Source of the DNA: an uncultured Clostridia bacterium
Lineage (GTDB): Bacteria > Bacillota > Clostridia > Christensenellales > Borkfalkiaceae
Reading direction: 5' to 3'
Assembly: GCA_947625095.1 (NCBI GenBank)
Contig: CANQMX010000001.1
Coordinates: forward strand, 124,001 to 188,000
DNA length: 64,000 bases
Shown: positions 9,116 through 32,500 of the stretch, piece after piece
Numbering within the stretch: position 1 is the first letter of the stretch
Layout: every line of letters starts with the position of its first letter
The notes under the pieces: model-generated
Told to the model about the DNA's origin: nothing
Seen by the model: only the letters and a program-made list of their open reading frames with translations
The model's database searches: none
Position numbers and translations under genes: made by a program

Positions 9116-9139
9116 GGTTGTTTCCTCCTGAAAAAAATT

Positions 9140-13917: not shown

Positions 13918-16900
13918 TTATTCCTTGTCTTCGGGGGGAAGCGTCTCGCTCCCGCCGCCGCTTTCGCTTTCACTGCCGCCCTTGCCGCTTTCACTTTCGC
14001 CGCCGCTTCCGCCGCCGCTTTCACTGCCGCCCTTGCCGCCTTCCGTCGACGGCTCATCCAGCCATTTGATCGTGCCCTCGATGATTTTGATGTCGTAAAA
14101 CTCCGTCACGTCGCGCCCTTCGGCGTCGACAACCTTTACATTTTCTTTGAGCAGTTCGTTCTTCGCCGATTTGTCTTTGAGGAGAAGTTTCCCCGTCATG
14201 GTGCATTGGAGGGTGTGCCCCTTCATGAGGGTGTTGAACGTGAGGTTGTACAGTGTTTTATCGTCCGATTTCACGATGTAATCGCGCTCCTTGGTGCTTC
14301 CCTCCTCGGTGCGCCGCACCGTCATGTTGATGGTGTGGATGGTGAGCGTGCGCTGCTTTACGGTGAGCACCGTAGCCCCCTCGGTCGCCGCTTGGGGGTT
14401 ACCGCCGACGAAGATAAAGCGGTTCTGCGCGGTGATGTCATTCCCCTCCGCGTCCTTGGCTGTGCACTGACTCTGCTCCCGCACATCCGCCGCGGTGAGC
14501 GAGCCGATCGACGTGATCCCCTCGCCGAATGCAATGAGATACTCCCATCCCTCCGCACCCGCGGGAACGATGATGACGCGCGCCCGCGACGAATCGTAGG
14601 TAAGCGGCTTGCCGTCGTACTGTTTGCTGAGGGAGGAGAGGTAGATATAGATGGGCGTATAGATGCGCAGCCCCCCCAATTCGCCCTGCTCTATCTCGTA
14701 GTTTTCCAGCATATCTACGCCGCTATCATCGACGATGGCAATGTCGGTGTAGGCGTTTGCTTCAAATCCGAATGTATACTTGCCGTCGTCGCCGCGGATA
14801 TCGGTGATATTCGTCCACTCTTTGCCCGTCGCGGTGGCGATGTGCCCCGCAAGAAGCCCGCGCTCTGCCCCCTGCTGCTCGTAAGCAAATTCTGCGGAAT
14901 GGGGCTGGCCGTCGTATACCCACGCGCCGCCCTCGCTGGTGACTTCGACGGGGCGGGGCTTTACGGTGATCGTGCCCCATACCCACTCGATATCGTAATT
15001 GCCCGTCACATCGAACCCGCCGGCGAGAATACGCGCGGTGTCGATATCCACCGTGTTGTTTTCCGCTACATTATCCCAAACATTGGTGACGGAGGCATAA
15101 TCCGCGGAGAGCGTGTGCCCCGCTACAATTCCCCGCTCCGCCTCTTGGTTGAATTCTTCCGCGGCGTATTCGGTGAAACGGAACGGCTGCCCGTCGTAGA
15201 CGTGCTCGCCCGTGCCCGTGGTGATCTTCACGGGGCGTTTTGTCACGGTGAGGATGCCGTCCGTCTCCTCGGAGTACTCAAAGGTGTAGTTGTCGAGGGA
15301 GACGTCTTTCCCGCTTGCGTCCCGAACGGTAAAGATGAACCGCACGCTGTTGCGCAGCTCGCCCACGTCGGTGATCGTCGCCGTCTCCGAGACGACCGCC
15401 GTCGCGATCCTTTGCCCCTTGGCAAGCCCCCTGTGCTCCTCTTCGTTATACTCTTCCGCCGTGTACTCTTCCACGCCGAACGGCTGCCCGTCGTAGACGT
15501 GCGTTCCGCCATTCGTTGTGATCTTCACGGGGCGCGGCGTGACCCGCAGTATGCCGTAGGTATAATACCCGTCAAAAATGTAATTTCTTGTGACGTCAAC
15601 CTCTTCCGCCGTGACCTTGATATTGGTAGGCTTGAAGAGGTTAGGGGTGGGGCTCCCTACATGGTCGACGGATGGCGTATTCTTGACCTCATCCGCCGTG
15701 AATATGTGCCCCGTAACAAGCCCTGTTTTGTTTTCTTGGTTGAACTTTTCTACCGTATAATCCGCCGCGGTATGCCGTTCGCCGTCGTACACAAATTCGT
15801 CCGAACCCGTCGTGATCTTCACGGGGCGCTGGGTTATAACAATTGTGCCCCATTCCCATGTAATCTCATAGTTGTCCGTAACGTCGTCGCCGTTCTCGAA
15901 AATGTGCACTTCTTTCCACTCGTTGTATTCCGTTTTGGATTCCGTTACGGGCGTCGTCGATTGGCTGTTTACCACCCACACGTTGGCGTCGGTGTAGGAA
16001 GGATATTCCGCGGAGAGCGTGTGGTTGTGCTCCGTAACGAGCGAATTTTCCACCGCTTCGTACTCATATACGCTGTGCTCCTGCGCGTCGTAGACGAACT
16101 CGCCCGAGAGCGTTCGAAGGGTCACTTTGCGCGCCAAAATTTCAATTTCTCCGTACACCCAATCCTCAATGTAATAGTTATCCGTCACATCGGTTTTGCC
16201 GTTTACGATCGTCACTTCCGTGGGGATATTTTGCTTCTTCCCCACATTTGTGCGCGTGGGATATGTCGCGGAGACGGTGTGCCCTTCGACCAATTTGAGG
16301 ATATCCCCCTCCTCGCTTCCCAGATCTTCGTATTCGGGCGCACCGTGCGGGTCGGCGTCGTATTCCACGTCGTAAAGCGATCCGGATTGGAACTTCACGT
16401 GCCGAGGCGTCACCGAAATCGTGCCCTTTTCGGCAAACGTAAAATCGTAGTTTTCGGTCACGTCCTTGTCGTCCGTATCGGTGATCTTGAACACCAATTC
16501 GTTGGTGACATCGCCCTCGTTTACGTTGGTGACGCTCGCCGCTTTGGCCACGGTGAAGTTGTGGAAGTCCACGACCCCATAATCTTTATCGCCCGCCTTT
16601 TCGGTAATGACGTAGCCCGCATCCTTTTCCGCATAGGTGTGCGCCTTGCCGTCATAGATGAACTGCTGTGACTGCGTTGTAATTTCGATCGGCCGCCTGT
16701 TCACGATGACCTGCGCCTCAACAACCGTGATGATGTAATTCTCCGTGGTGTCTCCTGCCGCCGAGGACACCGTTACGGTGGGCTTGCTCTCATATGTTTT
16801 TGCCTCGCGCGCGGAGAGGGTATTTGAAAATACCAGCCACTCGTCTGCCACAGGCTCGCGGGAAAGCGTGTACCAATCGTCCGTATCGTACTCGTGCCAT

Positions 16901-19900
16901 TCACCGTCGTATGTAAATTCGTCGGGCGTCATCGTCACCGTAATTGAAATTTTATTGATGACGACTTCCCCGTCCACTTGTTCTATTTTGTAGTTTTCCG
17001 TCACCTTTTCGTCACCCGCATAGACGTCGATCGTGGGCTTGTTGGTATATGTGCCCGCCTTCTGCGCGGTAAGAACGTCGCTAAAACGGAGCTCCTGCCC
17101 CGCCGCGAGCGTCCCTTCAAGCGTATACGCCTCTTGCTCGACGCCGTAGATATGCGGCTTGCCGTCGTAGTCAAACGTCTCGCTCTTTGCCGTCACCTTG
17201 ATGGAGATCTTATTGATAGTGACCGTACCGAATTTTTCGGTAATCTGATAGTTGCTCTTGGTGGACTTGCCCGCCGCGTCTACGATATCGTAATCGGGCG
17301 TGTTGTGGTATACGGCCGCGTTCCGCGCAGAGAGCGCCTCGGTGCGGCGGAACTCCTGTCCCGCGGCGAGCGATGTACCGTCGATGGCCTCGATTTTTTC
17401 ATAGGTATGCATCTCGCCGTCGTATGTAAATTCGGCGCTCTCGGTCTTCACTGTCAGGGGGCGCTTCTGAATGGTGACTGTGCCGTACGGCGTTTGCATT
17501 ATATTGTAGTAGTTTTTCGTCACGTCGTTGCCGTTCGCCATAATCGTGACCTTGAATTGGATCTCGTGCGTTCCGGCGTTCGCCATGCCGTCTTTCCCGA
17601 TATATTCGATGCGTACTTCATGCCCTTCGAGTTTGGGCATATCTTGCGGGTAGACGACTTCGCAATTCTCGTACTCCTCCCTCCATGAAATGCCGTCGTA
17701 GATGCGCTCCGCTACATTTTTCGAGTGCACTTCGATGGGGCGGCGGTCGATTGTCACCTCGCCCCAAACGGGCGTTATGTGATAATTGTCCGAGATGTTC
17801 TCCTCGTTCGCGTATACTTCCACCGTCATTTCGTTGAAATAGGTATCCGCATCAATGAACGATTTGTACCCCGTGAGCACAAGTTTATGCTCCGTTTTTG
17901 CAAGTTGCGTTTCCGAAGTGACTTCCGCAGAATTATAGGTATGCTCTTGGCCGTCGTAGGTAAATTTATCGCCCCTTGTCGTCACCGTAATTTCGCGCTT
18001 GTTGATTTTGACCGTGCCGTTGACGTGGGATACCTCGTAATTTTCAATGCAGTTCTCGCCGCCCTTTACCCCGATGAACTCATCGGAATAGGTGAGTTCG
18101 TTTTCACGGCTGTCCCATACGTTGATAATTTTCGGCGCAATGACGGTCGCCGTATAGGTATGCCCTTCGGCGAGTCCCCTCTCCCCGTTGAACGCTTCCA
18201 CATCGTATTTAGCCTCAAAGTGCTCATCTCCGTCGTATGTCCATTGATTGTTGTGCGCCGTAATGTTGATGTGGCGCTTATTTATAGTAATCGTGCCCCA
18301 CACCCATTCAATCTCGTAGTTATCGGTCACGCTGTCCTTGCCGTTGGAAATTTCCCAATTCTTCCACTCGTTGTTGTGCTCGGCGGTCTCCCGAACATTG
18401 GTGAACGCGGGATATTCCGCGGTGAGCGTGTGCCCCTCCACCAATTTGTAATATGCAGAGCCGGCCTCGCTCCCCCAATCTTTATAGGTCATCACGCTGT
18501 GCGGCTTTGCGTCGTATGTAACGGTGAGCGAATCCGTTTGCAATTTCACTTGGCGCTTGTTGATGACGACCGTCCCCCACTCCCATGTGAGCTTGTAGTT
18601 TGAAGTCACGTCATTGCCGTCTGCGTCCTCGATCTTCGCCGCTTCCGTGTCGATGCTGTTCGTGTAAGTATTTGCACCTATCCATGCGGAATAGGTCGTC
18701 ACCAATTTGTGTCCATCGGCAAGTTGCGTCCCCACTGCGGAATACGACGGCGCGTCGTGCTCCTTTGCGTCGTATGTAACGGTGTCCGAACCCGTGAGCA
18801 GGGTCACTTGGCGTATATCGACGGTGACTTTGCCGTACACGAGGGTGAGGTCGTAGTTTCCCGTCGTATTTTCCGTGCCCGCAAAGATCTCGATCGTGGG
18901 TTTGTTATCGTATGTCCCCACATTCTTCGCAGTCAGAACGTTTGCGGAATAGCGCACCGTTTCGCCGTCCGCGAGCGACGCGCTGAGCGTAAACGCCCCA
19001 CCCATGTCCGCGGTGTAGGTGTGTTCTTTGCCGTCGTAGGTAAATTCATCGTCCGTCGTCGTCACCGTGACGACGATTTTTTGAATGTTGATTTTGCCGA
19101 AGTCTGCGGTGATTTCGTAGTTGCTCTTTGTGGAGTTCCCCTCCGCGTCCAAAATGTCGAACTCGGGCGTGTTGTCATATGTGCGTGCATTTTTCGCGAC
19201 GAGCGGCGCAGCGCGGCGGAATTCCTGTCCCTCGGCAAGTGACGTATCGTTGGCGGCGGCGATGTCGTTGTAGGTGTGTTCCGTGCCGTCGTATGTAAAG
19301 TTCTCGCTCACCGTCGTCACATGGAGCGGGCGGAGATTGATGACGACTTCCGCCTCCTTCACCGTGATGTTATAATTCTCCGTGGTGTCTCCTGCCGCCG
19401 AGGACACCGTTACGGTGGGCTTGCTCACATATGTTTTTGCGTCGCGCGCGGAGAGCGTGCCCGAAAATTTCAGCCGCTCGCCATCCACGGGCGCGCCGTC
19501 GACCGAGTACCACTCCTCCGTGTTATACTCGTGCACCGCGCCGTCGTATGTAAACTCGTCGCCCTTCATCGTCACTGTGATCGCAATTTTATTGATAGTG
19601 ACAGTGCCATAAATTTTTTCTATCTCGTAGTTGTCCGTCGTCCTCTCGTCGCCCGCATAGATGTCGATCGTGGGCGTGTTTTGATATGTATCCGCCTTCT
19701 GTGCGGTCAGAACGCCGGTAAAGCGGAGCGCCTGCCCGTCCGCAAGCGTCCCTTTCAGTTCGTACGCCCCCTCTTCGATGCCGTAGGTATGCGGCTTGCC
19801 GTCGTAGTCGCGGGTCTCTGTCTTGGTCGTCACCTTGATCGCAATTTTGTCGACGGTGACTTTGCCGTATACGGGGGTGAGGTCGTAGTTGTCCGTCGTA

Positions 19901-22020
19901 TTTTCCGTGCCCGCAAAGATCTCGATCGTCGGTTTGTTATCGTATGTCCCAGCGCTCTGCACCATCAGAACGTTTGCGGCGTAGCGCACCGTCTCGCCCT
20001 CCGCGAGCGCCGCGCTGAGCGCATACGCCCCATCCATGTCCGCGGTATAGGTGTGTGCTTTGCCGTCGTAGGTAAATTTATCGCCCGTCGTCGTCACCGT
20101 GACGACGATTTTTTGAATGTTGATTTTGCCGAATTCTTCGGTGATGGCGTAGTTGCTCTTTGTGGAGTTGTCCTCCCCGTCCACAATGTCGAACTCGGGC
20201 GCGTTGTCGTATGTGCCCGCCTTGCGCCACGTCTTGGTATCGGAGCGGCGTATCTCCTGCCCCTCCGCAAGCCCGTTGTCGGGCGTAGTCGCGGCGACCG
20301 CCTCGATATCTTCGTAGGTGTGCTCTGCGCCGTCGTAGGTAAGGTCCTCACCCACCGTTTTTACCGTCACGGCGCGCCTGAGGATGACGACCGTACCCCT
20401 TTGGGTCTCGATCTCGTAGTTGGCAGTCACGTTCTCCTCGCCCGCGAAAATTCCGATGGTCGGGTCGTTTAAGTACCCCTCCTCGTTCGCCGCGGTAAAG
20501 GTATAATTGCCGCCCGTGAACTTTATCTCCTGCCCCGCGACGCAGGAGGTCTCGTCGGTGAGCGCCAGCGTTTTTTCGTCATATATATGCGATTTTCCGT
20601 CGTAGGTGCGGGTCTCCGTCTGGGTCGTCACATGGAGCGGGCGGCGGCCGATGATGACTTCCGCCTCCTCCACCGCGATCGTGTAATTCTCCGAAGTCTC
20701 CGCGTCCTCCGCGAACACCTTTACGGTGGGCTTGCTCACATATGTTTTTGCGTCACGCGCGGAAAGAGTATTTGTAAATTCCAGCCGCTCGCCCTCCACG
20801 GGCGCGCCGTCGAGCGTGTACCACTCCTCCGTGTTATACTCGTGCACCGCGCCGTCGTAAGTGAACGTCTCGCCCTTCATCGTCACCGTGATCGCAACTT
20901 TATCGATGGTGACCGTGCCGAATTTTTCGGTGATGGCGTAGTTGCCCTTCACGGAGTTCCCCTCTGCGTCCAAAATGTCGAACGCGGGCGCGTTGGGATA
21001 TGTGCCCGCATTTTTCGCAGAAAGCGGCGCGGCGCGGCGGAATGTCTGCCCCTCGGCGAGCGAGGTATCTTCGGCGGCCTCGATCTTTTCATAGGTGTGC
21101 GCCTTGCCGTCGTAGACAAATTCGGCGCTCTCGGTCGTCACCGTGACGGGGCGGGGCGTCACCGTCAGATCGCCGAAGTCCTCGGTGATCTTGTATTTTC
21201 CCGTCACGTCCTCATCGTTTTCGTCGAGGATATGGTACTCGCACGCGTTCACCTTTGTGCCCGCGTCGGTGATCGAGCCGAACTTCACCTCTTCGATGCG
21301 GTGTCCCTCGGCAAGGCCGTGGTCGCTCACGATCTCCCACTCCTCGGCGGAATGGGGCTTGCCGTCGTATGCAAAGGTCTCGGAGGGCGTATGCACGGTG
21401 ATCTCGCGCGCGATCTTATTCACGTCGCGCTCGGCGACCTCCACGTCGTAGGAGGCTGTCACATCCTCCCCGTCCGCGCTTACAATGGAGACGGCTTCGA
21501 GGTCGGCGACGATGTGATAGCCATTCTCGCCGCTCTCCTCCATCTGATAGCCGTTTACCTGCAAGGTGTCGTCATAGCGCAGGTCGGCGGCAAAGGTGGG
21601 CTTATCGCCGTACATGAGGTCGCTCTCCTGCACGCGCACCACCGTTTTCAGGGGGTCGATGGTGAAGGAGAAGATCTCTCCGCTCGGGCGGGAAGTTCCT
21701 GCAACGCTCGTGCCCACGGCGCGACATTCGTAAGTGCCCGCCGCCCGCGGGAAAATTTCGCTCCACTCGGTTTCGCCCTTCGGTCGGAATTCAAAGTCCG
21801 CGCCGCCGAACACCGTACTCGCCTGCATGGAGAGCGGTTCGCCGTATGTAAAGTGCGCGGGAACGGAGACCTCCGTCACCGTGCCTGCGACGCCCATCAT
21901 CGCGCCTGCAAAGGCGAGGAGCATCAAGAGCGCCAACAAATAGAGCAAGCGGAAGCGCCAGAACCGCTCAAACCTGCGCCTCCGCTGCTCTAACTTGTTT
22001 TTGTAGGAATCGTACAACAT
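13918..22020 (-). CDS. Giant (2700 aa) membrane-anchored MBG/YDG-repeat protein
   Basis: N-terminal basic segment plus TM (RRRRFERFWRFRLLYLLALLMLLAFAGAMMG); about 26 hand-counted 'YDG/YDA-x-x-H' units followed by 'xVTxNYxIxxxxGTVxIxxR'; Gly/Ser/Glu low-complexity C-terminus. Confidence 0.9.
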   Translation of the reverse strand: MLYDSYKNKLEQRRRRFERFWRFRLLYLLALLMLLAFAGAMMGVAGTVTEVSVPAHFTYGEPLSMQASTVFGGADFEFRPKGETEWSEIFPRAAGTYECRAVGTSVAGTSRPSGEIFSFTIDPLKTVVRVQESDLMYGDKPTFAADLRYDDTLQVNGYQMEESGENGYHIVADLEAVSIVSADGEDVTASYDVEVAERDVNKIAREITVHTPSETFAYDGKPHSAEEWEIVSDHGLAEGHRIEEVKFGSITDAGTKVNACEYHILDENDEDVTGKYKITEDFGDLTVTPRPVTVTTESAEFVYDGKAHTYEKIEAAEDTSLAEGQTFRRAAPLSAKNAGTYPNAPAFDILDAEGNSVKGNYAITEKFGTVTIDKVAITVTMKGETFTYDGAVHEYNTEEWYTLDGAPVEGERLEFTNTLSARDAKTYVSKPTVKVFAEDAETSENYTIAVEEAEVIIGRRPLHVTTQTETRTYDGKSHIYDEKTLALTDETSCVAGQEIKFTGGNYTFTAANEEGYLNDPTIGIFAGEENVTANYEIETQRGTVVILRRAVTVKTVGEDLTYDGAEHTYEDIEAVAATTPDNGLAEGQEIRRSDTKTWRKAGTYDNAPEFDIVDGEDNSTKSNYAITEEFGKINIQKIVVTVTTTGDKFTYDGKAHTYTADMDGAYALSAALAEGETVRYAANVLMVQSAGTYDNKPTIEIFAGTENTTDNYDLTPVYGKVTVDKIAIKVTTKTETRDYDGKPHTYGIEEGAYELKGTLADGQALRFTGVLTAQKADTYQNTPTIDIYAGDERTTDNYEIEKIYGTVTINKIAITVTMKGDEFTYDGAVHEYNTEEWYSVDGAPVDGERLKFSGTLSARDAKTYVSKPTVTVSSAAGDTTENYNITVKEAEVVINLRPLHVTTVSENFTYDGTEHTYNDIAAANDTSLAEGQEFRRAAPLVAKNARTYDNTPEFDILDAEGNSTKSNYEITADFGKINIQKIVVTVTTTDDEFTYDGKEHTYTADMGGAFTLSASLADGETVRYSANVLTAKNVGTYDNKPTIEIFAGTENTTGNYDLTLVYGKVTVDIRQVTLLTGSDTVTYDAKEHDAPSYSAVGTQLADGHKLVTTYSAWIGANTYTNSIDTEAAKIEDADGNDVTSNYKLTWEWGTVVINKRQVKLQTDSLTVTYDAKPHSVMTYKDWGSEAGSAYYKLVEGHTLTAEYPAFTNVRETAEHNNEWKNWEISNGKDSVTDNYEIEWVWGTITINKRHINITAHNNQWTYDGDEHFEAKYDVEAFNGERGLAEGHTYTATVIAPKIINVWDSRENELTYSDEFIGVKGGENCIENYEVSHVNGTVKINKREITVTTRGDKFTYDGQEHTYNSAEVTSETQLAKTEHKLVLTGYKSFIDADTYFNEMTVEVYANEENISDNYHITPVWGEVTIDRRPIEVHSKNVAERIYDGISWREEYENCEVVYPQDMPKLEGHEVRIEYIGKDGMANAGTHEIQFKVTIMANGNDVTKNYYNIMQTPYGTVTIQKRPLTVKTESAEFTYDGEMHTYEKIEAIDGTSLAAGQEFRRTEALSARNAAVYHNTPDYDIVDAAGKSTKSNYQITEKFGTVTINKISIKVTAKSETFDYDGKPHIYGVEQEAYTLEGTLAAGQELRFSDVLTAQKAGTYTNKPTIDVYAGDEKVTENYKIEQVDGEVVINKISITVTMTPDEFTYDGEWHEYDTDDWYTLSREPVADEWLVFSNTLSAREAKTYESKPTVTVSSAAGDTTENYIITVVEAQVIVNRRPIEITTQSQQFIYDGKAHTYAEKDAGYVITEKAGDKDYGVVDFHNFTVAKAASVTNVNEGDVTNELVFKITDTDDKDVTENYDFTFAEKGTISVTPRHVKFQSGSLYDVEYDADPHGAPEYEDLGSEEGDILKLVEGHTVSATYPTRTNVGKKQNIPTEVTIVNGKTDVTDNYYIEDWVYGEIEILARKVTLRTLSGEFVYDAQEHSVYEYEAVENSLVTEHNHTLSAEYPSYTDANVWVVNSQSTTPVTESKTEYNEWKEVHIFENGDDVTDNYEITWEWGTIVITQRPVKITTGSDEFVYDGERHTAADYTVEKFNQENKTGLVTGHIFTADEVKNTPSVDHVGSPTPNLFKPTNIKVTAEEVDVTRNYIFDGYYTYGILRVTPRPVKITTNGGTHVYDGQPFGVEEYTAEEYNEEEHRGLAKGQRIATAVVSETATITDVGELRNSVRFIFTVRDASGKDVSLDNYTFEYSEETDGILTVTKRPVKITTGTGEHVYDGQPFRFTEYAAEEFNQEAERGIVAGHTLSADYASVTNVWDNVAENNTVDIDTARILAGGFDVTGNYDIEWVWGTITVKPRPVEVTSEGGAWVYDGQPHSAEFAYEQQGAERGLLAGHIATATGKEWTNITDIRGDDGKYTFGFEANAYTDIAIVDDSGVDMLENYEIEQGELGGLRIYTPIYIYLSSLSKQYDGKPLTYDSSRARVIIVPAGAEGWEYLIAFGEGITSIGSLTAADVREQSQCTAKDAEGNDITAQNRFIFVGGNPQAATEGATVLTVKQRTLTIHTINMTVRRTEEGSTKERDYIVKSDDKTLYNLTFNTLMKGHTLQCTMTGKLLLKDKSAKNELLKENVKVVDAEGRDVTEFYDIKIIEGTIKWLDEPSTEGGKGGSESGGGSGGESESGKGGSESESGGGSETLPPEDKE

Positions 22021-22067: not shown

Positions 22068-24140
22068 CTAATCCCAGTCAATGGTGAGTTTTCCCCACAC
22101 GGGGATGATTTCATAGTTGTCCGTCACGTCGACGCCCGCGCGGTTGATGATCTTATAGTCCACCAAAATATTATCGTATTCACCCACTTCCGTCGGCCAA
22201 TCGCCGAACACGAGGTCGGTAAAGGTATCACCCTCCACAAGTTGATACTCGGAATCCGCGGCATACGACCACTCCGCGCATACAAGCGGCTCGCCGTCAT
22301 ACGGCTTCGCAAACGACCCCGTCTCGATGGTGATACGGCGCGGGATAATTTTGATCGTGCCGAACTCGAGCTCAATGATGTAACTGCTTGTAACGTCCCG
22401 TCCCGTGATGTCGCGCACTACTGCGGAGAAGCGGTTGGGCACGCTCCCGTCGCCGCCCGCCGCGTCGTTGGTCTTGACGTATGTAAGCGAGACCTCGTAG
22501 GTGACCTCCACCGTCTGTCCCAACGATTGGGGCAACCGCCCGCATTTTTCCTCGACGAGGGTAAAGTTATTCTGGATGGAGTTGGAAGATTGCGGCGCGC
22601 CGCTGTACACGAACTCATCCGTCGCGCCACGGATATACAGCCGCGGGCGGTGGCAGATGGCGCACAGGTTGCTATCGTCGTTGAAATCGTGGACATGGTC
22701 CCACTCGGCGGGATAGTAGTTAAAGCGTTCCAGAAGACCGGCGGGCAAATCCTCGGGCGAGATATTCTCCCACGGCATGACGATAGCGCCGAGCACCACA
22801 AGGGGAAGGAGGTGCTCCCACGGCATCTGCTCCCACGCAAAGTCCTCGCCGAAAGTCGACCACGGGATCTTGCTCCAATCGAAGCCATCGGGCACATTCT
22901 TAAAGAAGTTCCCCCAATCAAAGCCCGACGGCGCGCTCGAGAAGAACCCGCTCCAATCGAAATTATCGGGCACATTCTCAAAGAAGTTCCCCCAATCGAA
23001 GCCCTCGGGCACATTCTCCAAAAAGTCGCTCCACTCAAAGCCCTCGGGCGGGGCTTTCAGGAACGCACCCCAATCAAAGCCCTCGGGCGGGTCTTGCAGG
23101 AATTCGCCCCAATTAAAACCCTCGGGCGCGTTTTTCAGGAACTCGCTCCAATCGAAGTTCTCGGGCACGTTCTCAAAGAACTCGCCCCAGTCAAAGCCCT
23201 CGGGGATATTGTCGTAGAAGCCCTCCCAATCGAAGTCCTCTGGGATATTGCTCAAAAACTCGCCCCAGTCGAAGCCCTCGGGCACGTTCTCGAAGAACTC
23301 GCTCCACTCAAAGCCCTCGGGCGGGTTTTTCAAAAATTCGCCCCAATCGAAATCCTCGGGCACATCTTGCAAGAACTTGCCCCAGTCGAAGTCCTCGGGC
23401 GCGTTTTGCAGGAATTTACCCCAATCGAAGTTCTCGGGCACGTTGTTAAAGAATTCATCCCAGTCGAAGTTCTCGGGAATATTGTTATAGAAGCCCTCCC
23501 AATCGAAGTCCTCGGGGAGATCGTTCAAGAACTCGCCCCAGTCGAAATTCTCGGGCACGTTCTCAAAGAAGTCGCCCCACTCGAAGCCCTCGGGCGGATT
23601 TTTCAGGAACTCGCCCCAATCGAAGTCCTCTGGCACGCTTTGCAGGAACTTGCCCCAATCGAAGTCCTCGGGCACGTTTTGCGTCACTTTGCCCCAATCG
23701 AAGTCCTCGGGCAAACCGTCAAGGAAGCCCGGCCAATCGAAGCCCTCGGGGATATTTTCAAGGAAGCCCGGCCAGTCGAAATCTTCGGGCAAACTGTTAA
23801 GGAAGCCAGGCCAGTCGAAATCCTCGGGCAAATTTTCAAAGAACCCGCCCCAATCGAAGTCTTCGGGCAAATTATCAAGGAAGCCTTCCCAATCGAAATC
23901 GTCGGATATTTCCTTAAAGAAATCCCCCCAATCGAAGTTATCGGGCAGGTTGTTGAAGAACTTGCCCCAATCAAAGTCCTTCAAATATTTCAGCCACGGG
24001 TTAGCAGCCTCCGCCACCGCGTCGGGGTCTGTGAGCACGGCAAAATTTTGGTAACCCGTGCCGATCATGAGGCCGCCGATAAACATCACAACGCTGGCGA
24101 GCAACATTCCGAGCATAACTAAAATTTTCTTTCGGATCAT
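22068..24140 (-). CDS. Tandem 13-residue repeat protein with N-terminal TM and C-terminal MBG-type domain
   Basis: MIRKKILVMLGMLLASVVMFIGGLMIG then about 28 units of PE(D/G/N)FDWGxFLxNv, then a YSGAPQSS..VTSSYIIELEFGTIKI / PYDGEPL..VTDNYEIIPVWGKLTI region. Confidence 0.9.
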   Translation of the reverse strand: MIRKKILVMLGMLLASVVMFIGGLMIGTGYQNFAVLTDPDAVAEAANPWLKYLKDFDWGKFFNNLPDNFDWGDFFKEISDDFDWEGFLDNLPEDFDWGGFFENLPEDFDWPGFLNSLPEDFDWPGFLENIPEGFDWPGFLDGLPEDFDWGKVTQNVPEDFDWGKFLQSVPEDFDWGEFLKNPPEGFEWGDFFENVPENFDWGEFLNDLPEDFDWEGFYNNIPENFDWDEFFNNVPENFDWGKFLQNAPEDFDWGKFLQDVPEDFDWGEFLKNPPEGFEWSEFFENVPEGFDWGEFLSNIPEDFDWEGFYDNIPEGFDWGEFFENVPENFDWSEFLKNAPEGFNWGEFLQDPPEGFDWGAFLKAPPEGFEWSDFLENVPEGFDWGNFFENVPDNFDWSGFFSSAPSGFDWGNFFKNVPDGFDWSKIPWSTFGEDFAWEQMPWEHLLPLVVLGAIVMPWENISPEDLPAGLLERFNYYPAEWDHVHDFNDDSNLCAICHRPRLYIRGATDEFVYSGAPQSSNSIQNNFTLVEEKCGRLPQSLGQTVEVTYEVSLTYVKTNDAAGGDGSVPNRFSAVVRDITGRDVTSSYIIELEFGTIKIIPRRITIETGSFAKPYDGEPLVCAEWSYAADSEYQLVEGDTFTDLVFGDWPTEVGEYDNILVDYKIINRAGVDVTDNYEIIPVWGKLTIDWD
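22815..23987 (-). repeat. 39-bp coding tandem repeat array (about 28-30 units)
   Basis: Plus-strand 'tcgaagtcctcgggcac..ttgccccaa' pattern every 39 bp, inside the 22068-24140 CDS. Confidence 0.9.
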
Positions 24141-24169: not shown

Positions 24170-25633
24170 TCACATCTTTTGCACGCGCACAAGATAGTTG
24201 CGGCATTTTGGCATCTTGCCTTCGCCGAAGAGCGTTTCAAGATATTTTGAAGTCTCTTCGAGGGCGTTTTTCAACAGAGACAGATCTTTGTTTGCGAGTT
24301 TGCGCAAAACTTTTTTGCAGAGGATGTCGTCGAGCGCCTCCAACTCCTCGCCCCCGCACGCGGCATACACCGAGATATAACTGCGGATCTGCCGCATGAT
24401 GCGGTTTCCGAATGTGATCTGAAAGTTCTCCACAAGGTGCTCGTCGAGGGCTTTCAGCCTGCGCTCGTTGCGCCGCGTGATCTCGTATCCCCTCTGCGCG
24501 TCCTCGGCAAGCCGCGTAAATTCGCGGAAGGAGATGGGCACGGTCGCCTCCTTCTCGTCCCCCGTAAAGGGCGGCGTACGGTTGTCGAGGTCGACGACCA
24601 TCGCGCGGTCGTACACCTTATCCGAGATGGAAAAGGTGCTGTCGTCGTTGTTTGCAGTGCCCACGAACCACATATTTTCGGGCAGTTTGATGCGCCCGTC
24701 TTTGAGTCCCTCGGGGTCGTCGTCCCACTTATCGGTGACGACTTCGAGATACCTTAGTTCGGGGTTGGGGATCTCGAGGAGGGATAGAAACTCGGCGAAG
24801 TAGTACTCCACGCGGGCGATGTTCATCTCGTCGAGCACGGTGATGTAAATTTTTTCCGAACTGTTCGCCTCATACATCTTACGGAGGAGCGCCGTCTCGT
24901 TGTACTTGCGGGTGAACTCGTTATAGTAGCCCAAAAGGTCGCTCCTCTCCTTCCACATGGGCTGCACGGGGATGATGGTGGAGGAATTGCCGATGAATTC
25001 CCCGAACGCGTAGGTGAGCGAGGTCTTACCCGTGCCCGAGATGCCCTGCAAAATGAGGATGTGCGAAACGGCGAGGCTCGCCACAAATTCGCGGATCTGC
25101 GCCTCTGTGTAGTAGAGGTGGAGGTTGGTGGCGGCGAACATACGGAACTTTTGGCACAATTCCTGGAGGGAGGAGACCGCCCCGTCGCGCACGCGCACGG
25201 GCGCTGTGCCGATCTCGTTGAGCGCGCTGAAACGGTGGGAGTGCAATTCCTTCTCCTGTTCCTTTTCGATCTGCTTTTTCTCGGAGTCCACGGCGATGCG
25301 CACCGTCTCCTCCCACGTCAGGCGGTAATAGCGGAACTTCCGCCGCCGCACGCCGTTGATGACGAGAAAGATGATGAGGAGGATGGGGATGGCGAGGATC
25401 CAGAAGATGACGATGGAGCGGACGATGGGATCGCTCAAAAACGCCGATTCGATGACGGAGAACACGGCTTTCAGCGTCTCGTCGCGGAGCATCATCACGA
25501 GCAGGGAAATAAAAGTCCCCCCGATCAGAATGACCGAGACGAGGAGAATGACGGAGAGGACAAAACGGCGTTTGCCTCTGCGCTTGATTTTCTTTCTTGC
25601 CTGCTCCGGCGATAGCTTTTTCTTTTTGCCCAT
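24170..25633 (-). CDS. Membrane-anchored McrB/MoxR-like AAA+ ATPase (second copy)
   Basis: Two N-terminal TM helices; Walker A GISGTGKTSL, Walker B ITVLDEMNIARVEYYFAEF, sensor region NMWFVGTANNDDSTFSISDKVYDRAM. Confidence 0.85.
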   Translation of the reverse strand: MGKKKKLSPEQARKKIKRRGKRRFVLSVILLVSVILIGGTFISLLVMMLRDETLKAVFSVIESAFLSDPIVRSIVIFWILAIPILLIIFLVINGVRRRKFRYYRLTWEETVRIAVDSEKKQIEKEQEKELHSHRFSALNEIGTAPVRVRDGAVSSLQELCQKFRMFAATNLHLYYTEAQIREFVASLAVSHILILQGISGTGKTSLTYAFGEFIGNSSTIIPVQPMWKERSDLLGYYNEFTRKYNETALLRKMYEANSSEKIYITVLDEMNIARVEYYFAEFLSLLEIPNPELRYLEVVTDKWDDDPEGLKDGRIKLPENMWFVGTANNDDSTFSISDKVYDRAMVVDLDNRTPPFTGDEKEATVPISFREFTRLAEDAQRGYEITRRNERRLKALDEHLVENFQITFGNRIMRQIRSYISVYAACGGEELEALDDILCKKVLRKLANKDLSLLKNALEETSKYLETLFGEGKMPKCRNYLVRVQKM

Positions 25634-25658: not shown

Positions 25659-27674
25659 CTACGCGCCCTTTTTCGGCGCGGTTGTTGTCTTTGTCTCTGC
25701 GCTCTTCGGCGCAGTCGTCTTTGTTTGAACATTTCCCTCCGCAGGCTTGGGTGTAGCCGCGGGCTTGGGTGTAGCCGCGGGTTTCGGTGCAGCCGCAGCC
25801 GCAGGCTTGGGCGGAGGCGTTGCCGCCTTCTGCGCCGCCGCAGGTTTTGCCGCAGGCGCTTGCGGTTTCGCCGCAGTCGCGGGTTTGGTCGCCGTCGCAG
25901 GCGCAGTCGCGGGTTTGGGCGGGGGTTGCGGCGTGCGCGCCCTCACTTCGGCGCTCAAACTGCGGTACTCGTCCGATTTCTCCCCCCTCTTTCCGCGCAT
26001 CACGGCGCGGATATTGCCCGAGAACTCCTTTTTGAGGATCCTCTTCACATCCGTCCAATTCTTGCGCACCAGCCTGCCCAGCGTCTCGAACTCGTGTTCG
26101 AGGGCGTTGAAGCCCGCTTCCGTCGTAAAGTCGTCTGCGGGGGTCAAGAGGCCTCGCTCGCTCCGCACGGCGGTCAGCCGCGCCTTATAAACGGCAAGTT
26201 CGCGCTCCACGCTCTCCTGCGTCTTTTCGGCGGTCTTGCGTTTTTCGGTCTCCTCCTCCATGACGGCGCGGTTCTCGGCGAGGCGCGCGTCGCACTCGTC
26301 CTGCACGCGGGCGAGGTCCGCCCTTCTCGTCTCCTCTGCGCGGGCGAGCGCCTCTGCGCTCTCCTTTTTGAGGGCGGCCTCCGAGGCCGCACGTTCGCGC
26401 GTCATCTCCTCCACCTTTTGGCGGTGTTCCGCTTCGGCGCGCTTCATGTCCTCTTGGAGGGCGGCGTTCACATCGTTCAGTCTGTCTATCTCGGCGCGGA
26501 GCACCTTCCCCTCCGTCGTGAGGGTCTCCACGGTCTCCTTCAATTTCTCGATCTCGGCGCGCGCCTCTTTTAAGAGTTTGCTGTCCTTTTCGAGCGCCGC
26601 GTTGCGCTCCTCGAGCAAGAGGGCGTACTCTTCGATGCCCTTTCCCGTCTCGGCGACCCGCTTTTTGAGCTGGCGGATGGCCTCTGCGAGGGCGGCTTGG
26701 CGCGCCTCTTCGCGGCGGACTTCCTCCTTCTCGAACTCCTCCTGCAGGGCGTTTTCCACGCCCAGCCCGTACTTATACACGAGGAGGGAGGTGAGCAGCA
26801 TGGGCGCGGCGAGTTCTCTTGCGGCAGCCTCGCTCACGGGGTCGAGGGTCTTTACTTCGCGCTGGATGGTAAACCCGTCCCTGTCGTAGGCGAGGAGGAA
26901 TTCATACAGCGTCACGGCCTCCTTGAAGTTCTTATCCATGCGGAGGACGTTGGTCTTGGTGATCTTGGATTTTATCTTATCGACGCGGGAGACCTCAATC
27001 ATGAGGGGGGTCCGCATAAAGAACGCCACGCTCTGCTGGATCTTCTCGAGGCGGTCGATGTAATAGGCACATTCGGGGTCGGCGGAGGCGGCGAGCACGT
27101 CGTCCTGTTCGTCGGTGAAGTTCAACTCGTAGGTGAGTTTCCTCGTCGCCGTCACCACCTTCTTTTGGGCAGTGAGTTCGCCGCGGTACAGCCTGTAAGC
27201 GCGCAGGATGGACTCGTAGCGGTAGGTCACAAAGTCGCGGATGCGGCACAAAAGCAGGTACAAAAACCTGTTCTCGTACACGGTATAGTCGTTGAGCCGT
27301 TCCACCGTGTACAGTTTATCGGGGATGAGGTCGCCCTTCTCGGCCTCCTGTTTGCGCGAGATAAAGTCGCTGTGGCGGGAGAGGTGCTGCACCGATTCGC
27401 GCGAGACGTGCTTCACCTTCTCGATGGGCTGCACCTCGCCGTTGGAGCGGATGAATTGCCTATCCTCTTCAATGGCCTTGCCGATGTACACAAGCCCGCG
27501 CTCGATGGCAGCCACCCAATCCTCTTCGACGTGGCAGATGTTGTGCACGACGACGATCTTATCCGGCTCTCTCGCGTTTGCGATGGTGCCCTCCATGGCG
27601 GTCACGCCGTGGTGCTCGTCGAGTTGTTTGGAAAGATCGCGGAAGGCGCGATACAGCAGGTCTATCTGGTTCAT
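25659..27674 (-). CDS. Coiled-coil protein with possible McrC/DUF2357-like N-terminal region and P/A/K/T-rich tail
   Basis: LYTVERLNDYTVYENRFLYLLLCRIRDFV segment; long heptad-like E/K/R/A region; disordered PKPAAT tail. Position between two AAA+ genes. Confidence 0.6.
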   Translation of the reverse strand: MNQIDLLYRAFRDLSKQLDEHHGVTAMEGTIANAREPDKIVVVHNICHVEEDWVAAIERGLVYIGKAIEEDRQFIRSNGEVQPIEKVKHVSRESVQHLSRHSDFISRKQEAEKGDLIPDKLYTVERLNDYTVYENRFLYLLLCRIRDFVTYRYESILRAYRLYRGELTAQKKVVTATRKLTYELNFTDEQDDVLAASADPECAYYIDRLEKIQQSVAFFMRTPLMIEVSRVDKIKSKITKTNVLRMDKNFKEAVTLYEFLLAYDRDGFTIQREVKTLDPVSEAAARELAAPMLLTSLLVYKYGLGVENALQEEFEKEEVRREEARQAALAEAIRQLKKRVAETGKGIEEYALLLEERNAALEKDSKLLKEARAEIEKLKETVETLTTEGKVLRAEIDRLNDVNAALQEDMKRAEAEHRQKVEEMTRERAASEAALKKESAEALARAEETRRADLARVQDECDARLAENRAVMEEETEKRKTAEKTQESVERELAVYKARLTAVRSERGLLTPADDFTTEAGFNALEHEFETLGRLVRKNWTDVKRILKKEFSGNIRAVMRGKRGEKSDEYRSLSAEVRARTPQPPPKPATAPATATKPATAAKPQAPAAKPAAAQKAATPPPKPAAAAAPKPAATPKPAATPKPAEGNVQTKTTAPKSAETKTTTAPKKGA

Positions 27675-27683
27675 GCGCCCCCC

Positions 27684-29012
27684 TTAGGTATTCCGCGCAA
27701 TGCGGCGCACGGTGCGCAGGCATCGCTTCATGCGCTCGGGGCCGAAGAGTTCGTTGAACATGGCGCACAGCGCTTCGAGTTCGGCGGCGCGGTAGGTGAG
27801 GTTCTGCGTCTCCAACTTGCGCAGCACCTTTTTGGCGAGGATGTCGTCCAGCGCGTCCAACTCCTCGCCGCCGCACGCAACGTACACGGGCAGGTAGATG
27901 GTGATCTGCCGCATGATACGGTTTCCGAACGCGATCCTGTAATTTTCGGCGAGGTAGGCGTCGATCTTGCGCAGTTTATCAAAGGTCTCGGGCGAGATCT
28001 TATACCCCCGCACCGCCCTTTGGGCGAGCCGCATAAACGTCCTTGCGGAAACGGGCAGCGGCTTTCTCACGGGCGCGGTAAAGGGTTCGGACTTGGTGTC
28101 GATGTTGAGGATCATCGCGCGGTCGTACACCTTGTCGGAGATGGCAAACGTCGAGTCGTCGTTGTTGGCCGTGCCGATGAACCACATATTCTGGGGCAGG
28201 CGCACCCTGCCGTTTTCGAGTTCGACGGGGTCGTCGGGCCAGCGGTCGGATACGACCTCCAACTTGCGCGATTCCGCCTTGGGCAGTTCGAGCAGGGATA
28301 GAAACTCGGCAAAATAGTACTCCACGCGGGCGATGTTCATCTCGTCGAGGATGGTCACATAGATGTCCTTGCGCCCGTTGGCCTCGTAAATTTTTTGCAG
28401 GAGCAGGGTCTCGTTGAACCGCTTGGTGAATTCGTTGTAGTAGCCCAACAGGTCGCTCCTCTCCTTCCACATGGGCTGGACGGGGATGACGGTGGAGGGA
28501 TTTCCGAGGAACTCCCCGAAGGCATAGGCGAGCGAAGTCTTGCCCGTACCGGACATACCCTGCAAAATAACGATGTGCGAGACGGCAAGCCCCGCGATGA
28601 ACTCGCGGATGGTGTCGATGTCGTAATACAGCCGCAGCGTCCCCGCGGCGAAGTTGCGGAAGGCGTCGCAGAACACTTTAAGGGAGATATTCTCCACAAA
28701 GGGTTTTGGCTGGTAGGTCTTTCGTTCCGCGTCGATGCGCTTCAACATATCGAAGCGGGAGGTCTGTTTTTCCCCCTTGTCGGCGGCCTCCTCCGTCTTT
28801 TCCACCGTCTTTTCCACCCGCCGCGAGAGCGAGGAAAAGCGGTGCTCGTTCACCATCACGGAGATGACGATGATGAGCATGAGCAGCACGATGGCGGCGA
28901 TGTAAATGACGATAAAGAGAGGCGACGTCAAAAATCCGAGAACGCCCTGCGCTCCCTCCGCCGCCGCGTCTGCCGCCGCTTGAGTTGTTTCTTCTTCCAG
29001 GAGTTCGATCAT
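27684..29012 (-). CDS. Membrane-anchored McrB/MoxR-like AAA+ ATPase (first copy)
   Basis: One N-terminal TM; GMSGTGKTSLAYAFGEFLG, VTILDEMNIARVEYYFAEF, NMWFIGTANNDDSTFAISDKVYDRAM. Confidence 0.85.
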   Translation of the reverse strand: MIELLEEETTQAAADAAAEGAQGVLGFLTSPLFIVIYIAAIVLLMLIIVISVMVNEHRFSSLSRRVEKTVEKTEEAADKGEKQTSRFDMLKRIDAERKTYQPKPFVENISLKVFCDAFRNFAAGTLRLYYDIDTIREFIAGLAVSHIVILQGMSGTGKTSLAYAFGEFLGNPSTVIPVQPMWKERSDLLGYYNEFTKRFNETLLLQKIYEANGRKDIYVTILDEMNIARVEYYFAEFLSLLELPKAESRKLEVVSDRWPDDPVELENGRVRLPQNMWFIGTANNDDSTFAISDKVYDRAMILNIDTKSEPFTAPVRKPLPVSARTFMRLAQRAVRGYKISPETFDKLRKIDAYLAENYRIAFGNRIMRQITIYLPVYVACGGEELDALDDILAKKVLRKLETQNLTYRAAELEALCAMFNELFGPERMKRCLRTVRRIARNT

Positions 29013-32000
29013 CGCTTTATCTTCCCGTCTCCCCTTGCGTCCAAAAATTCATTGCAGAGTTTGGTATTTTTTCCGAATATTTCCACGAGCGCGTCCGTCA
29101 GCGTGCCGTCGCAGAGGTCGGTGTCCCACACCTCGAAGAGCCACGGCAGGGCTTCGGCGGCAAGCGCACCGTCTATCGCGTCGTCGTCCTCCGCGCCGCA
29201 CGCCGAAAGCACGGCGGCGTGGATCTCCGTCTTGACCCACAGGATATTCCCGACGTGCGCCGAGCGGCACCGCTCCGTCAGCCCGTCCACGTTCTTCCAC
29301 GCCATCTCGCCGAGGGGATACTCATCGCGCACGTTGTGCCGCATGGCGGTAAAGCGGTCGAAGCCCACCGACTGCACCACGCTCTTGCGCTCCAAAACGG
29401 CGCACTCGCTGCACCGCGGCAGCAGGATGGCGGCGACTTCGGAGATGGAAGCGGGGATCGCGCCGAGGTCTTTCTCCTCCACTTCGGCGACGATGCGCAA
29501 ATTCTGCGGAAGCACGCAGTCCGTACCGTCGGGCAGGGGGAGGGAGGCCCTCCTTCTTGCGATGCAGTCCGCCACCGTCTCGAACACCTTTCCGAGGCGG
29601 GAGGCCTCGGCATGGCGCAGCACCGCGATGTGCAGGAACGCGGGTTCGCGCGCGCACGCTTCGAGCGCCTGCGTCAGCGCCGTCTCGTGGTAGGTGCGCT
29701 CGTTGGTTTTCCACTGCGTAAAGAGGTCGCTGCTCTGCGTGTACTGTTCGGCGTTGTCGATGTAGGGCTTCTTGCCGAAGTACTCGGCGACCGCGCCCAT
29801 GAGCGCCGCCCCCATGCCGTAGGGCACGATGATGAGTTGGGCGGCGGCAACGGCGGCAAACACGCCGCGCATGGTGTTCTCCTCGGGGTCGAACCCGCGC
29901 TCCTTCACATACAGCGTGCCGTCGCGCAACATCTCCGCGAAGGTGAGTTCCTTGTCAAAGTATTGAATGGGATCTTCGGGCGCGACCTCCTCCGCCTCCG
30001 CCCTCGCCTCGTCCGCGGCGCGGAAGGCCTCCTCGAACGCGGCGTCCGGAAGTTTCGTCTCGGGCTTTGCCTGCGTAAAGTAATACTTCTGCCAGCTGTT
30101 CGCACCGCTCTTGCTCTTCACGAGGACGTGCTCGGTGATGGCGGCAACAATGGCCATGAGCGGCGTTCCGAGGGCGATGCACGAAAGAACAGTCATCACC
30201 AAGGTCTCCGTGTCCCCCTTGACGCTCCCGCGGATCATCATGATGCCGAGCACAAGGCAGGCAAGCAGCATGGGCAGGCACACGATGAGCGCCCCCGTCC
30301 GGACGTGCGAAAGGCGGCGTCGGTTGAAACTTCCGAGGAGGGGCACGATGGCGAGCATGAGCACGGCCAACCCGTACACCCCCCACTTCACCGCCTCTAT
30401 GTCGAGGCTGGCGACGAGGGCGTAGTCCAGAAGATAGGCGCAGATGTACACCGTAAAGAGCATGAAGAAGAGCACGGCGGAGATGGGGAAAACCCACAGC
30501 GCGGCGCGGCGCAGGTGGTGCAGGGGCTTGGGCACGCCCTCCTCGGGGTGCAGCCCCACGCGGCTGTGCGAAGCGGGGCTTTCGTCGCGCACGAACGGGC
30601 CGTCGGGGAAGTAGTCCGCGGGGTGGATCTCCGTAGCGGGCTTGCGCTTGACCCCGGGCAGGCTGCGCTTGCCTTGCAGGCGCACCTCCTGCGCGTTGGC
30701 GCACACGTAGATGGTATACGTCCCCGCCTCCACGTTGTCGGTGAGGGTGACGGGGTCGTATGTCGCGTAGTCGGCGGGCGTCAGCGTGACGGTCGCCTTC
30801 TTGCTCTCGCCCGGTTTGAGGGCGAACTTGCACACCGCTTTCAAGCGTTTTCTGGGTTGGAAGGTCGTATCCGTCGGCGCGCCGATATAAATTTGCGCGA
30901 CCTCGTAGCCGAAGCGGCTTCCCGTGTTGCGCACGGTGAAGGAAATTTTATCGCCGTTCACGGAGAGTCCCGAATAGGCGAATTTGGTGTAGGAAAGCCC
31001 GAACCCGAAGGGATAGCGCACCCTCTCGCGGGCGGTATCATATCTGAGATACCCCACAAATCCGCCCACGCGAAGCCTTCCCGCGTCGCGCTCCTCGCAC
31101 AGTTTTTTGAAGTAGGCGTCCCCGTTGTCGTAGGCGGTCCTCGTGAGCCTGCCGCCGGGAGCGGCCTCGCCCGTGAGCACGCGCGCGAGGGCTTCCGCCG
31201 CATAGCGTCCGTCCGCGGGCGCGATGAGTAGGGCGTCCAGCACACTGTCGAACGAGAGGTCGGCGGGCATATCGCCGCACACGATGCCCACAATGCGCTT
31301 GCCCGTCTTTTTGATGGCCTGCAACAGGGCGATGCGGTTGGCGGGCATCGTCAGGCTTCTGCCCGTCTCGTCGGGGTAGAGGAAGGCGAGCACCACGTCC
31401 GCGCCCCCCGCCGCCCGCACGGCCTCGGGGATGAGCGCGTCGCTGCGCGCCGTCTGGCGCTCGTACCCGCGCGCGCGCCCGCGCAGAGTGAACCTGCTCG
31501 CAAACGCGGAGAGGTCGGCGTAGGCCTCCCCCACCACGGCAACGCGCGTCCCCTTCGCAAGCGGGAGGATGCGCTGATTTTTGAGTAAAACGATGCTCGC
31601 AACGGCCATCACCTTGCGCGCCACGTCGCTGTCGGGGATGTTCGCGGGCATCCGCTTTGCCACTTTCATCGCAAAGTCTATCACTTCGCCCGCCGCCTCG
31701 TCGAGTTTTCTCTCGTCGAGCGCCGTCCCGTCGCGCACCGCGTCCAGAAGGTCGCGCTCGCTGATGCTCCCCTCCGCGCGGTATTGTTTGAGCTGTTCAT
31801 ACCGCCTCGACGCCCGCTCCAAAGGAATGGCCGCCCCGCCGAGCGAGACCTTCCCGCGCAGCAGCGTCAGTGCCGAGGAGTTGGCGGCAACGCCGTCGCC
31901 CACGGCGAACGTGTCGCCGAAATATCCGTTCTGCACGTCGTTGAACAGCGCGCGGTTGGTATCGGGGTAGCCGTTCGAAAGGCGGTTGGGCGCAAGGAAC

Positions 32001-32500
32001 ACGGCCTCGCACCGTGCCCGCGCGGCGGTGAGGAAGGGTCGTTCCACAAGGTCGCGCACCGCGCCCGCGTCCTCGCGGCGGTCGAGGTAGGCGATGTCCC
32101 CCTCGTCCATGGAGAGGGCGGAAAGCCCCACCGCCATGCCCGTCGCGTGCACCGCGCTCGCAATGGAGGCGCCGATGAGGCCGTTCAGCCCCGCGTCCTC
32201 CGAAAGCCCCGTCGCATAGGGATTGGTCGCCGCCTTCAAGTCGGGGGTGACGAACAGTTTTTTGCCCGCCTTGGCTGCCTCCGAGGCAAGTTCCCTCGTC
32301 ATGCGGCCGATGAGCGCGGGGTCGAAGGAGCGCGCGGCGGAGGCATAGGAGACCCCCTTTTCGTTCGCGAGGTCGTCTAAATACACCCGTCCCACGGCGG
32401 GGATGCCCGCCTGCACGAGGCCTTCGTCCCCCAGCCCGGAGGCGACGAGCGCCACCTTGCGGAGCGGGTCGAGTTGTCCGAGAATGTCGTTATGCTTCAT
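29009..32500 (-). CDS. GH3-like domain / 4-TM / degenerate AAA+ fusion protein (1163 aa)
   Basis: GH3-like features: VLLKNQRILPLAKGTRVAVVGEAY, GGRLTRTAYDNG, RVRYPFGFGLSYTKF, FnIII-like NTGSRFGYEVAQIYIG; four TM helices; C-terminus collinear with the neighbouring AAA+ proteins (LPQNLRIV / ISEVAAIL / SACGAEDDDAIDGALAAEALPWL). Confidence 0.75.
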   Translation of the reverse strand: MKHNDILGQLDPLRKVALVASGLGDEGLVQAGIPAVGRVYLDDLANEKGVSYASAARSFDPALIGRMTRELASEAAKAGKKLFVTPDLKAATNPYATGLSEDAGLNGLIGASIASAVHATGMAVGLSALSMDEGDIAYLDRREDAGAVRDLVERPFLTAARARCEAVFLAPNRLSNGYPDTNRALFNDVQNGYFGDTFAVGDGVAANSSALTLLRGKVSLGGAAIPLERASRRYEQLKQYRAEGSISERDLLDAVRDGTALDERKLDEAAGEVIDFAMKVAKRMPANIPDSDVARKVMAVASIVLLKNQRILPLAKGTRVAVVGEAYADLSAFASRFTLRGRARGYERQTARSDALIPEAVRAAGGADVVLAFLYPDETGRSLTMPANRIALLQAIKKTGKRIVGIVCGDMPADLSFDSVLDALLIAPADGRYAAEALARVLTGEAAPGGRLTRTAYDNGDAYFKKLCEERDAGRLRVGGFVGYLRYDTARERVRYPFGFGLSYTKFAYSGLSVNGDKISFTVRNTGSRFGYEVAQIYIGAPTDTTFQPRKRLKAVCKFALKPGESKKATVTLTPADYATYDPVTLTDNVEAGTYTIYVCANAQEVRLQGKRSLPGVKRKPATEIHPADYFPDGPFVRDESPASHSRVGLHPEEGVPKPLHHLRRAALWVFPISAVLFFMLFTVYICAYLLDYALVASLDIEAVKWGVYGLAVLMLAIVPLLGSFNRRRLSHVRTGALIVCLPMLLACLVLGIMMIRGSVKGDTETLVMTVLSCIALGTPLMAIVAAITEHVLVKSKSGANSWQKYYFTQAKPETKLPDAAFEEAFRAADEARAEAEEVAPEDPIQYFDKELTFAEMLRDGTLYVKERGFDPEENTMRGVFAAVAAAQLIIVPYGMGAALMGAVAEYFGKKPYIDNAEQYTQSSDLFTQWKTNERTYHETALTQALEACAREPAFLHIAVLRHAEASRLGKVFETVADCIARRRASLPLPDGTDCVLPQNLRIVAEVEEKDLGAIPASISEVAAILLPRCSECAVLERKSVVQSVGFDRFTAMRHNVRDEYPLGEMAWKNVDGLTERCRSAHVGNILWVKTEIHAAVLSACGAEDDDAIDGALAAEALPWLFEVWDTDLCDGTLTDALVEIFGKNTKLCNEFLDARGDGKIKR

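Follow-up and report, generated by a model that had tools for sequence, protein, structure and literature searches.

A 29-unit array of 13-residue FDW repeats in a predicted surface protein of a McrB-linked operon from an uncultured Clostridia bacterium

Results

Genes of the operon

We analyzed a stretch of DNA of 64,000 nucleotides (the window) from an uncultured Clostridia bacterium. A tight operon of six genes lies on its minus strand, in which neighbours overlap slightly or stand no more than 47 nt apart. The operon opens with a gene for a GH3-like membrane protein with C-terminal TM segments (29009..32500, matches to Glyco_hydro_3_C and Fn3-like). It is followed by AAA1, a McrB-like AAA protein with one N-terminal TM (27684..29012), by a DUF2357 (McrC N-terminal domain)-like protein with a coiled coil (25659..27674), and by AAA2, a second McrB-like AAA protein with two N-terminal TMs (24170..25633). 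The fifth gene (22068..24140, read from 24140 to 22068) encodes the 690-aa FDW protein, referred to below as the slot protein. The sixth (13918..22020) is an ORF for a giant 2,700-aa YDG/MBG-like repeat protein with 26 YDG-type motifs and a type II TM at residues 26-44.

Both AAA proteins were matched by AAA_5, weakly by the McrB model of NCBIfam, and strongly by the PADLOC profile PDC-M26A (2.9e-53 and 9.4e-46). When the AAA profile was compared with the PDB, McrB came first (6hz4, E 2.5e-4). The two window copies share about 52%, and both carry GTANNDDST. This NxD signature, GT[AV]N[ND]DDS[TA], was observed in every AAA copy whose stretch spans the motif, and it marks the CoCoNuT/CoCoPALM branch (PMC11090510). 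For the third gene, we detected DUF2357 (PF09823) in five of eight orthologues (best 2.1e-6) together with coiled-coil matches; the window copy itself was below detection. No nuclease was recognised in this gene or in the rest of the operon by Pfam or NCBIfam.

At 29009-32500, neither a Pfam match to the N-terminal part of GH3 nor a signal peptide was recognised, and the GH3-like domain is fused to several TMs; the protein is possibly a non-catalytic sensor. This gene was present in most, not all, of the related cassettes described below, and another gene stands there in L038 and L051. In L052, L053, L054 and L055, AAA1 and AAA2 of one genome were identical or nearly so, which may reflect concerted evolution or recent duplication.

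The repeat array

The preliminary description had reported a tandem 13-residue repeat protein at 22068-24140. We confirmed this observation with corrections: the ORF is present, but on the minus strand. The plus-strand frame is broken by a stop, and the plus-strand ORFs over the gene are antisense by-products. An antisense or non-coding origin of the array was ruled out by the minus frame with its operon context, by homologues and by third-position variation. A full-length relative, L028, is 54% identical to the slot protein. From N to C terminus, the latter consists of a TM, the FDW array, degenerate Pro-Trp units, a Cys/His element and two YDG/MBG-like domains.

Unit-by-unit parsing yielded 29 consecutive F[DEN]W units (22854..23984, minus strand, residues 53-429), spaced exactly 13 residues apart without insertion or deletion. 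The earlier count of about 28 is therefore corrected to 29 in-register units, and the statement that their length hardly varies holds. One degenerate unit, GEDFAWEQMPWEH, follows at offset 14. The consensus unit was P-E-[DGN]-F-D-W-[GS]-x-F-[LF]-x-N-[VLI]. F4 and W6 were present in 29/29 units, P1 and F9 in 27/29, D5 in 25/29, E2 in 23/29 and N12 in 19/29. Lag-13 identity was 0.59 (maximum of 1,000 shuffles, 0.14). The array proved to be as acidic and aromatic-rich as had been proposed, with 26% acidic and 26% aromatic residues and a net charge of -84 over 377 residues.

At the DNA level, TRF detected a 39-bp repeat in 28.4 copies, and also a higher-order repeat of 273 bp, equal to 7 units or 91 aa (22990..23868, minus strand, 3.2 copies, 80% matches). 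Identity between units peaks at the 7-unit distance (0.70). Since this superrepeat overlies the array, we conclude that the array grew at least partly by segmental duplication. Identity between units at codon positions 1, 2 and 3 was 0.69, 0.79 and 0.56, respectively. As the third position is the most variable and the invariant residues use mixed codons (TTC/TTT), selection acts on the protein sequence. The invariant F4 and W6, the exact spacing and the third-position variation point to a folded core or a binding face rather than to loose filler.

None of the curated repeat families in four profile libraries (Pfam, NCBIfam, PHROGs, PADLOC) claimed the array, and the PDB gave no match by sequence; a known repeat family was therefore excluded. 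This agrees with the earlier view that the array belongs to no named family, and the refutation set for that view, identification as an existing Pfam repeat family, was put to the test and did not come about. The sole Pfam match of the array was EcsC (E 0.015, half its cut-off). A phage or plasmid origin was also rejected, as there was no phage match and no viral contig, and two plasmid matches, one of them an SdrD-like protein, were 24-25% identical and judged compositional.

Other tandem repeats were observed in the window. At 953-1174 and 33954-34166 there are tandem repeats of two near-identical copies, with periods of 114 and 91 bp and 93-95% matches, and a 243-bp repeat (49525-50330, 3.3 copies, 86% matches) lies within a minus-strand ORF of 772 aa (49294-51612).

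Anchor and C-terminal part of the slot protein

The N-terminal TM of the preliminary description was found by hydropathy scan at residues 6-24 (24069..24125, minus strand), preceded by MIRKK. By the positive-inside rule, the N terminus is expected to be inside. Hydropathy suggests a type II topology with the array outside.

Downstream of the array, the translation shows degenerate Pro-Trp-type units (KIPW, QMPW, VMPW) and a hydrophobic segment (22761..22853, minus strand, residues 430-460, ...GEDFAWEQMPWEHLLPLVVLGAIVMPWENI), conserved in L028 and L032. Next comes an HxHxF...CxxCH element (22650..22697, minus strand, residues 482-497), in which H482, H484, F486, C493 and C496 are conserved in three orthologues. 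It is a possible metal or disulfide knuckle.

The C terminus comprises two YDG/MBG-like domains (22071..22643, minus strand, approximately residues 500-598 and 599-690), defined by homology with the giant protein. Residues 572-688 matched units of that 2,700-aa protein with 38% identity (E 3.6e-14). Thus the MBG-type end noted earlier is supported by homology to the neighbour, but no Pfam MBG model was reached: PF18657, PF18676 and PF17883 were reached by neither the slot nor the giant protein of the window, and orthologues reached YDG/MBG_2 below cut-offs only. Transglut_core (Pfam) was absent from the window slot protein.

The Pro-Trp units, the Cys/His element and the conserved McrB/DUF2357 operon had no place in the preliminary description, nor had the derivation of the 13-mer from a wider family of Pro-Trp arrays.

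The array family and the cassette in other genomes

In total, 25 loci belonging to six families of the order yielded all or part of the cassette (AAA, DUF2357-like, AAA, slot, giant); these taxon counts rest on genome samples, and many genomes are incomplete. Within the genus its presence is patchy. One genome (G140, locus L057) keeps a single AAA, and a reduced cassette in another order (L095) has an AAA pair, a gene in the DUF2357 position, a 194-aa slot protein and a protein of 1,383 aa that contains a transglutaminase core. The gut habitat of the host is inferred from the name of a relative's sample, Lapin-030.

The slot proteins keep the TM and, in most loci, the C-terminal YDG/MBG-like domains, and their middle is exchanged between species. 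Acidic Pro-Trp/FDW arrays occupy the slot in 17 genomes: the FDW array in the window, a mixture of FDW and Pro-Trp units in L028, and Pro-Trp arrays in 15 further genomes. In L037, L039, L041, L042, L052 and L053 the slot holds at least one transglutaminase core; Transglut_core was matched by Pfam in L037, L039 and L042, and the call in L041, L052 and L053 was made from HAW[TVA]E and Cys motifs. In L042, 14 DUF1542 repeats follow three transglutaminases. In L036 the middle is Gly-rich, and the slot proteins of L054-L056 have YDG domains only. The FDW array represents the form that a single lineage has of this exchangeable module, in a McrB-linked cassette on which little has been published. 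The tandem transglutaminase cores of L039 and L041 include some with Ser in place of the catalytic Cys, beside copies with an intact Cys.

The arrays range in length from about 110 to 905 residues, with prolines spaced mainly 5, 9, 8, 4 or 13 residues apart. Aromatic (16-25%) and acidic (20-32%) contents are kept across divergent arrays with differing unit lengths. Aligned by eye, the Pro-Trp unit LPEDFPW-EN-VPW-DN corresponds to the window unit VPEDFDW-GK-FLQN. Given this correspondence and the presence of both unit types in L028, the FDW 13-mer seems to be a local variant, made uniform by homogenisation, of an order-level family of Pro-Trp arrays.

A profile of the Pro-Trp array matched 12 of the 297 genomes of the order, and 11 of these matches were real, all in the slot; in a set of 399 phylum-wide genomes, no match fell outside the order. 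When a single sequence was searched against 391 class-wide genomes, just G030, of the same genus, was returned. The sole candidate for an array outside the cassette, in G111, was spurious (stops, no array ORF). The unit PEDFDYSSI of the L049 array (7927-9366) is similar to a short motif in the C-terminal domain of MnmG/GidA (PF13932, E 5e-11 for the whole protein). This SAM_GIDA_C match was judged composition-driven, because no single stretch passes alone, and the resemblance is probably convergent.

In the tree of AAA domains, array-bearing cassettes formed one supported group in each of the AAA1 and AAA2 subtrees (100/98), and transglutaminase cassettes fell outside. The simplest reading would be a single origin of the array in the slot; it is now present in families f1, f3, f19 and f32, which is compatible with vertical descent or transfer.

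Predicted fold

We modelled 19 units with AF2 from a single sequence. A short helix of 5-7 residues was predicted in every 13-mer (mean pLDDT 74.7, pTM 0.59). The model of L028, obtained with one aligned sequence, again had the 13-residue helix spacing in the FDW units and mostly three-residue turns in the Pro-Trp units (mean pLDDT 50.9, approximately 77-80 in the best array stretch). Foldseek found no PDB or viral fold match to the array model at E<=0.001, and TM-scores were below 0.3.

Alpha-solenoids (PUF, HEAT, TPR, ANK and others) share with the FDW array its predicted regular helical repeats. They differ in the size of the unit, which in the array is 13 residues with one 5-7-residue helix; in known alpha-solenoid families each unit has at least two helices and is longer than 30 residues. 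When given repeat sequences, AF2 builds solenoids that are unrealistic despite high confidence, and in one case a random 13-residue repeat came out as an alpha-solenoid (PMC11795689). As AF2 over-folds repeats, the fold of the array is treated here as a hypothesis, and for the regular solenoid suggested in the preliminary description the models provide weak support.

Discussion

The best-supported reading of the array is that of an extracellular stalk, suggested by its position, its length variation and its replacement by stalk-like modules. The slot protein would be anchored N-in, with the array outside. Each 13-residue repeat would contribute one short amphipathic helix to a regular rod, in which W6, F9, L10 and V13 lie on one helix face, F4 in the turn, and the acidic residues point outward. 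Such a rod would raise the Cys/His element and the YDG/MBG-like domains off the membrane, beside the giant MBG-like partner, and its length would be altered by segmental duplication of 7-unit blocks. In favour of this, other cassettes have Gly-rich sequence, 14 DUF1542 repeats or tandem transglutaminases in the slot, and the TM and usually the YDG/MBG-like end are kept. Against it, a stalk role is not obvious for the transglutaminases that occupy this slot. DUF1542 and other Gram-positive surface stalk repeats likewise stand in tandem between a membrane anchor and C-terminal domains, but share no detectable sequence with the FDW or Pro-Trp arrays. The full account, a stalk in a type II single-pass protein with a regular rod, 7-unit length changes, a McrB-type assembly machine and a locally derived Pro-Trp form, has in our estimation an even chance of being right.

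The main rival places a multivalent binding array in the same position. Each unit's Trp and Phe with flanking acids would form a site for a cell-wall polymer, a dietary glycan, a cation or the giant partner; repeat number would set avidity, not reach, and folding may be partial. W6 and F4, which never vary, would suit such a site, as would the aromatic and acidic contents kept among arrays of different unit length, and the operon opens with a GH3-like gene. However, a buried aromatic core accounts for the same conservation, the slot also accepts Gly-rich and DUF1542 modules, and no similarity to a known carbohydrate-binding repeat was found in Pfam or NCBIfam. We consider this rather unlikely. 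The earlier phrase "extended spacer/binding array" fits the evolution of the slot, with its range of lengths and its exchange for stalk-type or enzymatic modules; overall, the interpretation first offered is partly supported.

Quite improbable, in our view, is a mostly disordered acidic chain of stickers and spacers that forms an extended or condensed surface layer. The composition and charge of the array would allow it, as would the Pro-Trp relatives, which have a proline every 4-5 residues and are modelled with low AF2 confidence, and the tendency of AF2 to over-fold repeats. It is opposed by the exact 13-residue spacing, the lack of any indel in 29 units and the helix predicted in every unit.

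The stalk reading includes a proposed cytoplasmic machine, built from the two McrB-type NTPases with their membrane anchors and the McrC-like coiled-coil protein, which has no recognised nuclease. It would assemble, export or regulate the slot and giant surface proteins, in line with the proposal made for CoCoPALM. We infer this from synteny and from the CoCoPALM precedent; the tight operon, the synteny over six families and the pairing of NxD McrB with a DUF2357-like partner count in its favour. The one line of evidence that would couple the NTPases to the surface proteins is gene neighbourhood.

CoCoPALM systems combine a McrB NxD NTPase fused to a TM and an FtsB-like coiled coil, a McrC-like protein with a coiled coil, and a pilus-assembly signal peptidase (PMC11090510). 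The cassette resembles them in that both AAA copies carry the NxD motif and N-terminal TMs, the DUF2357-like coiled-coil partner has no recognised nuclease, and surface proteins are predicted. It differs in having two McrB-like copies that flank the McrC-like gene, and instead a GH3-like TM protein, an array or transglutaminase slot protein and a giant YDG/MBG-like protein. No signal peptidase, pilus assembly or pilin-like gene was found among the six genes with Pfam and NCBIfam, and we therefore call the cassette CoCoPALM-related and not a member.

A related locus, L096 (5276-13699), has a single McrB-like NTPase and a gene in the DUF2357 position, flanked by two signal peptidases of the SipW-like kind and by several short TM proteins. 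The latter resemble TasA-type subunits by eye, and the DUF2357 position was likewise called by eye, without library confirmation. This locus is likely CoCoPALM. A locus of this type, with SipW-like signal peptidases beside the NTPase, supports a link to surface filaments (cf. PMC11090510).

Compared with type IV restriction by McrBC (E. coli McrB/McrC), the cassette shows distant homology of the AAA and DUF2357 domains. It has NxD in place of NxxD, membrane anchors, and no recognised nuclease or DNA-specificity domain; because Pfam and NCBIfam showed no nuclease, we do not regard it as a classical McrBC restriction system. A part in anti-phage defence, with the surface proteins acting at the envelope of a McrBC-like system (PADLOC candidate PDC-M26), would be in keeping with the PDC-M26A matches, the McrB/McrC ancestry and the patchy presence within the genus, but is very improbable, since no nuclease is recognised in the McrC-like gene or operon, two genes encode giant or long predicted surface proteins, and PDC-M26A is a candidate model of which the best stretch covers part only.

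MoxR, DUF58 and TgpA genes occur in association. The slot orthologues of L039 and L042 resemble TgpA-type membrane transglutaminases in their matches to Transglut_core and TgpA_N, whereas the window protein has no transglutaminase, and the neighbours are McrB/DUF2357-like and not MoxR/DUF58. Among the papers searched, none combined MoxR, DUF58, transglutaminase and TgpA. The array itself was set aside as a transglutaminase substrate because Gln and Lys are scarce in it (5 and 13 of 377 residues).

A stronger form of the stalk reading is unlikely. Here the FDW rod would represent a new fold class, with one short helix per 13-residue turn and axial ladders of F and W, displayed on the surface by two membrane-bound NTPases of the McrB type that act on surface proteins and not on nucleic acids.

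In summary, the repeat family is absent from the curated libraries searched, and the natural series of arrays (the 13-mer FDW form and the 5/9- and 5/8-residue Pro-Trp grammars) offers a testbed for the sequence rules that govern very short helical repeats. A surface module, be it an acidic array, a transglutaminase, DUF1542 or glycine-rich sequence, is swapped at one fixed position in the cassette, next to a pair of membrane-anchored NTPases of the McrB type. This provides a specific case in which to test an idea that has been described in brief, namely that some relatives of McrBC moved from nucleic-acid restriction to cell-surface assembly.
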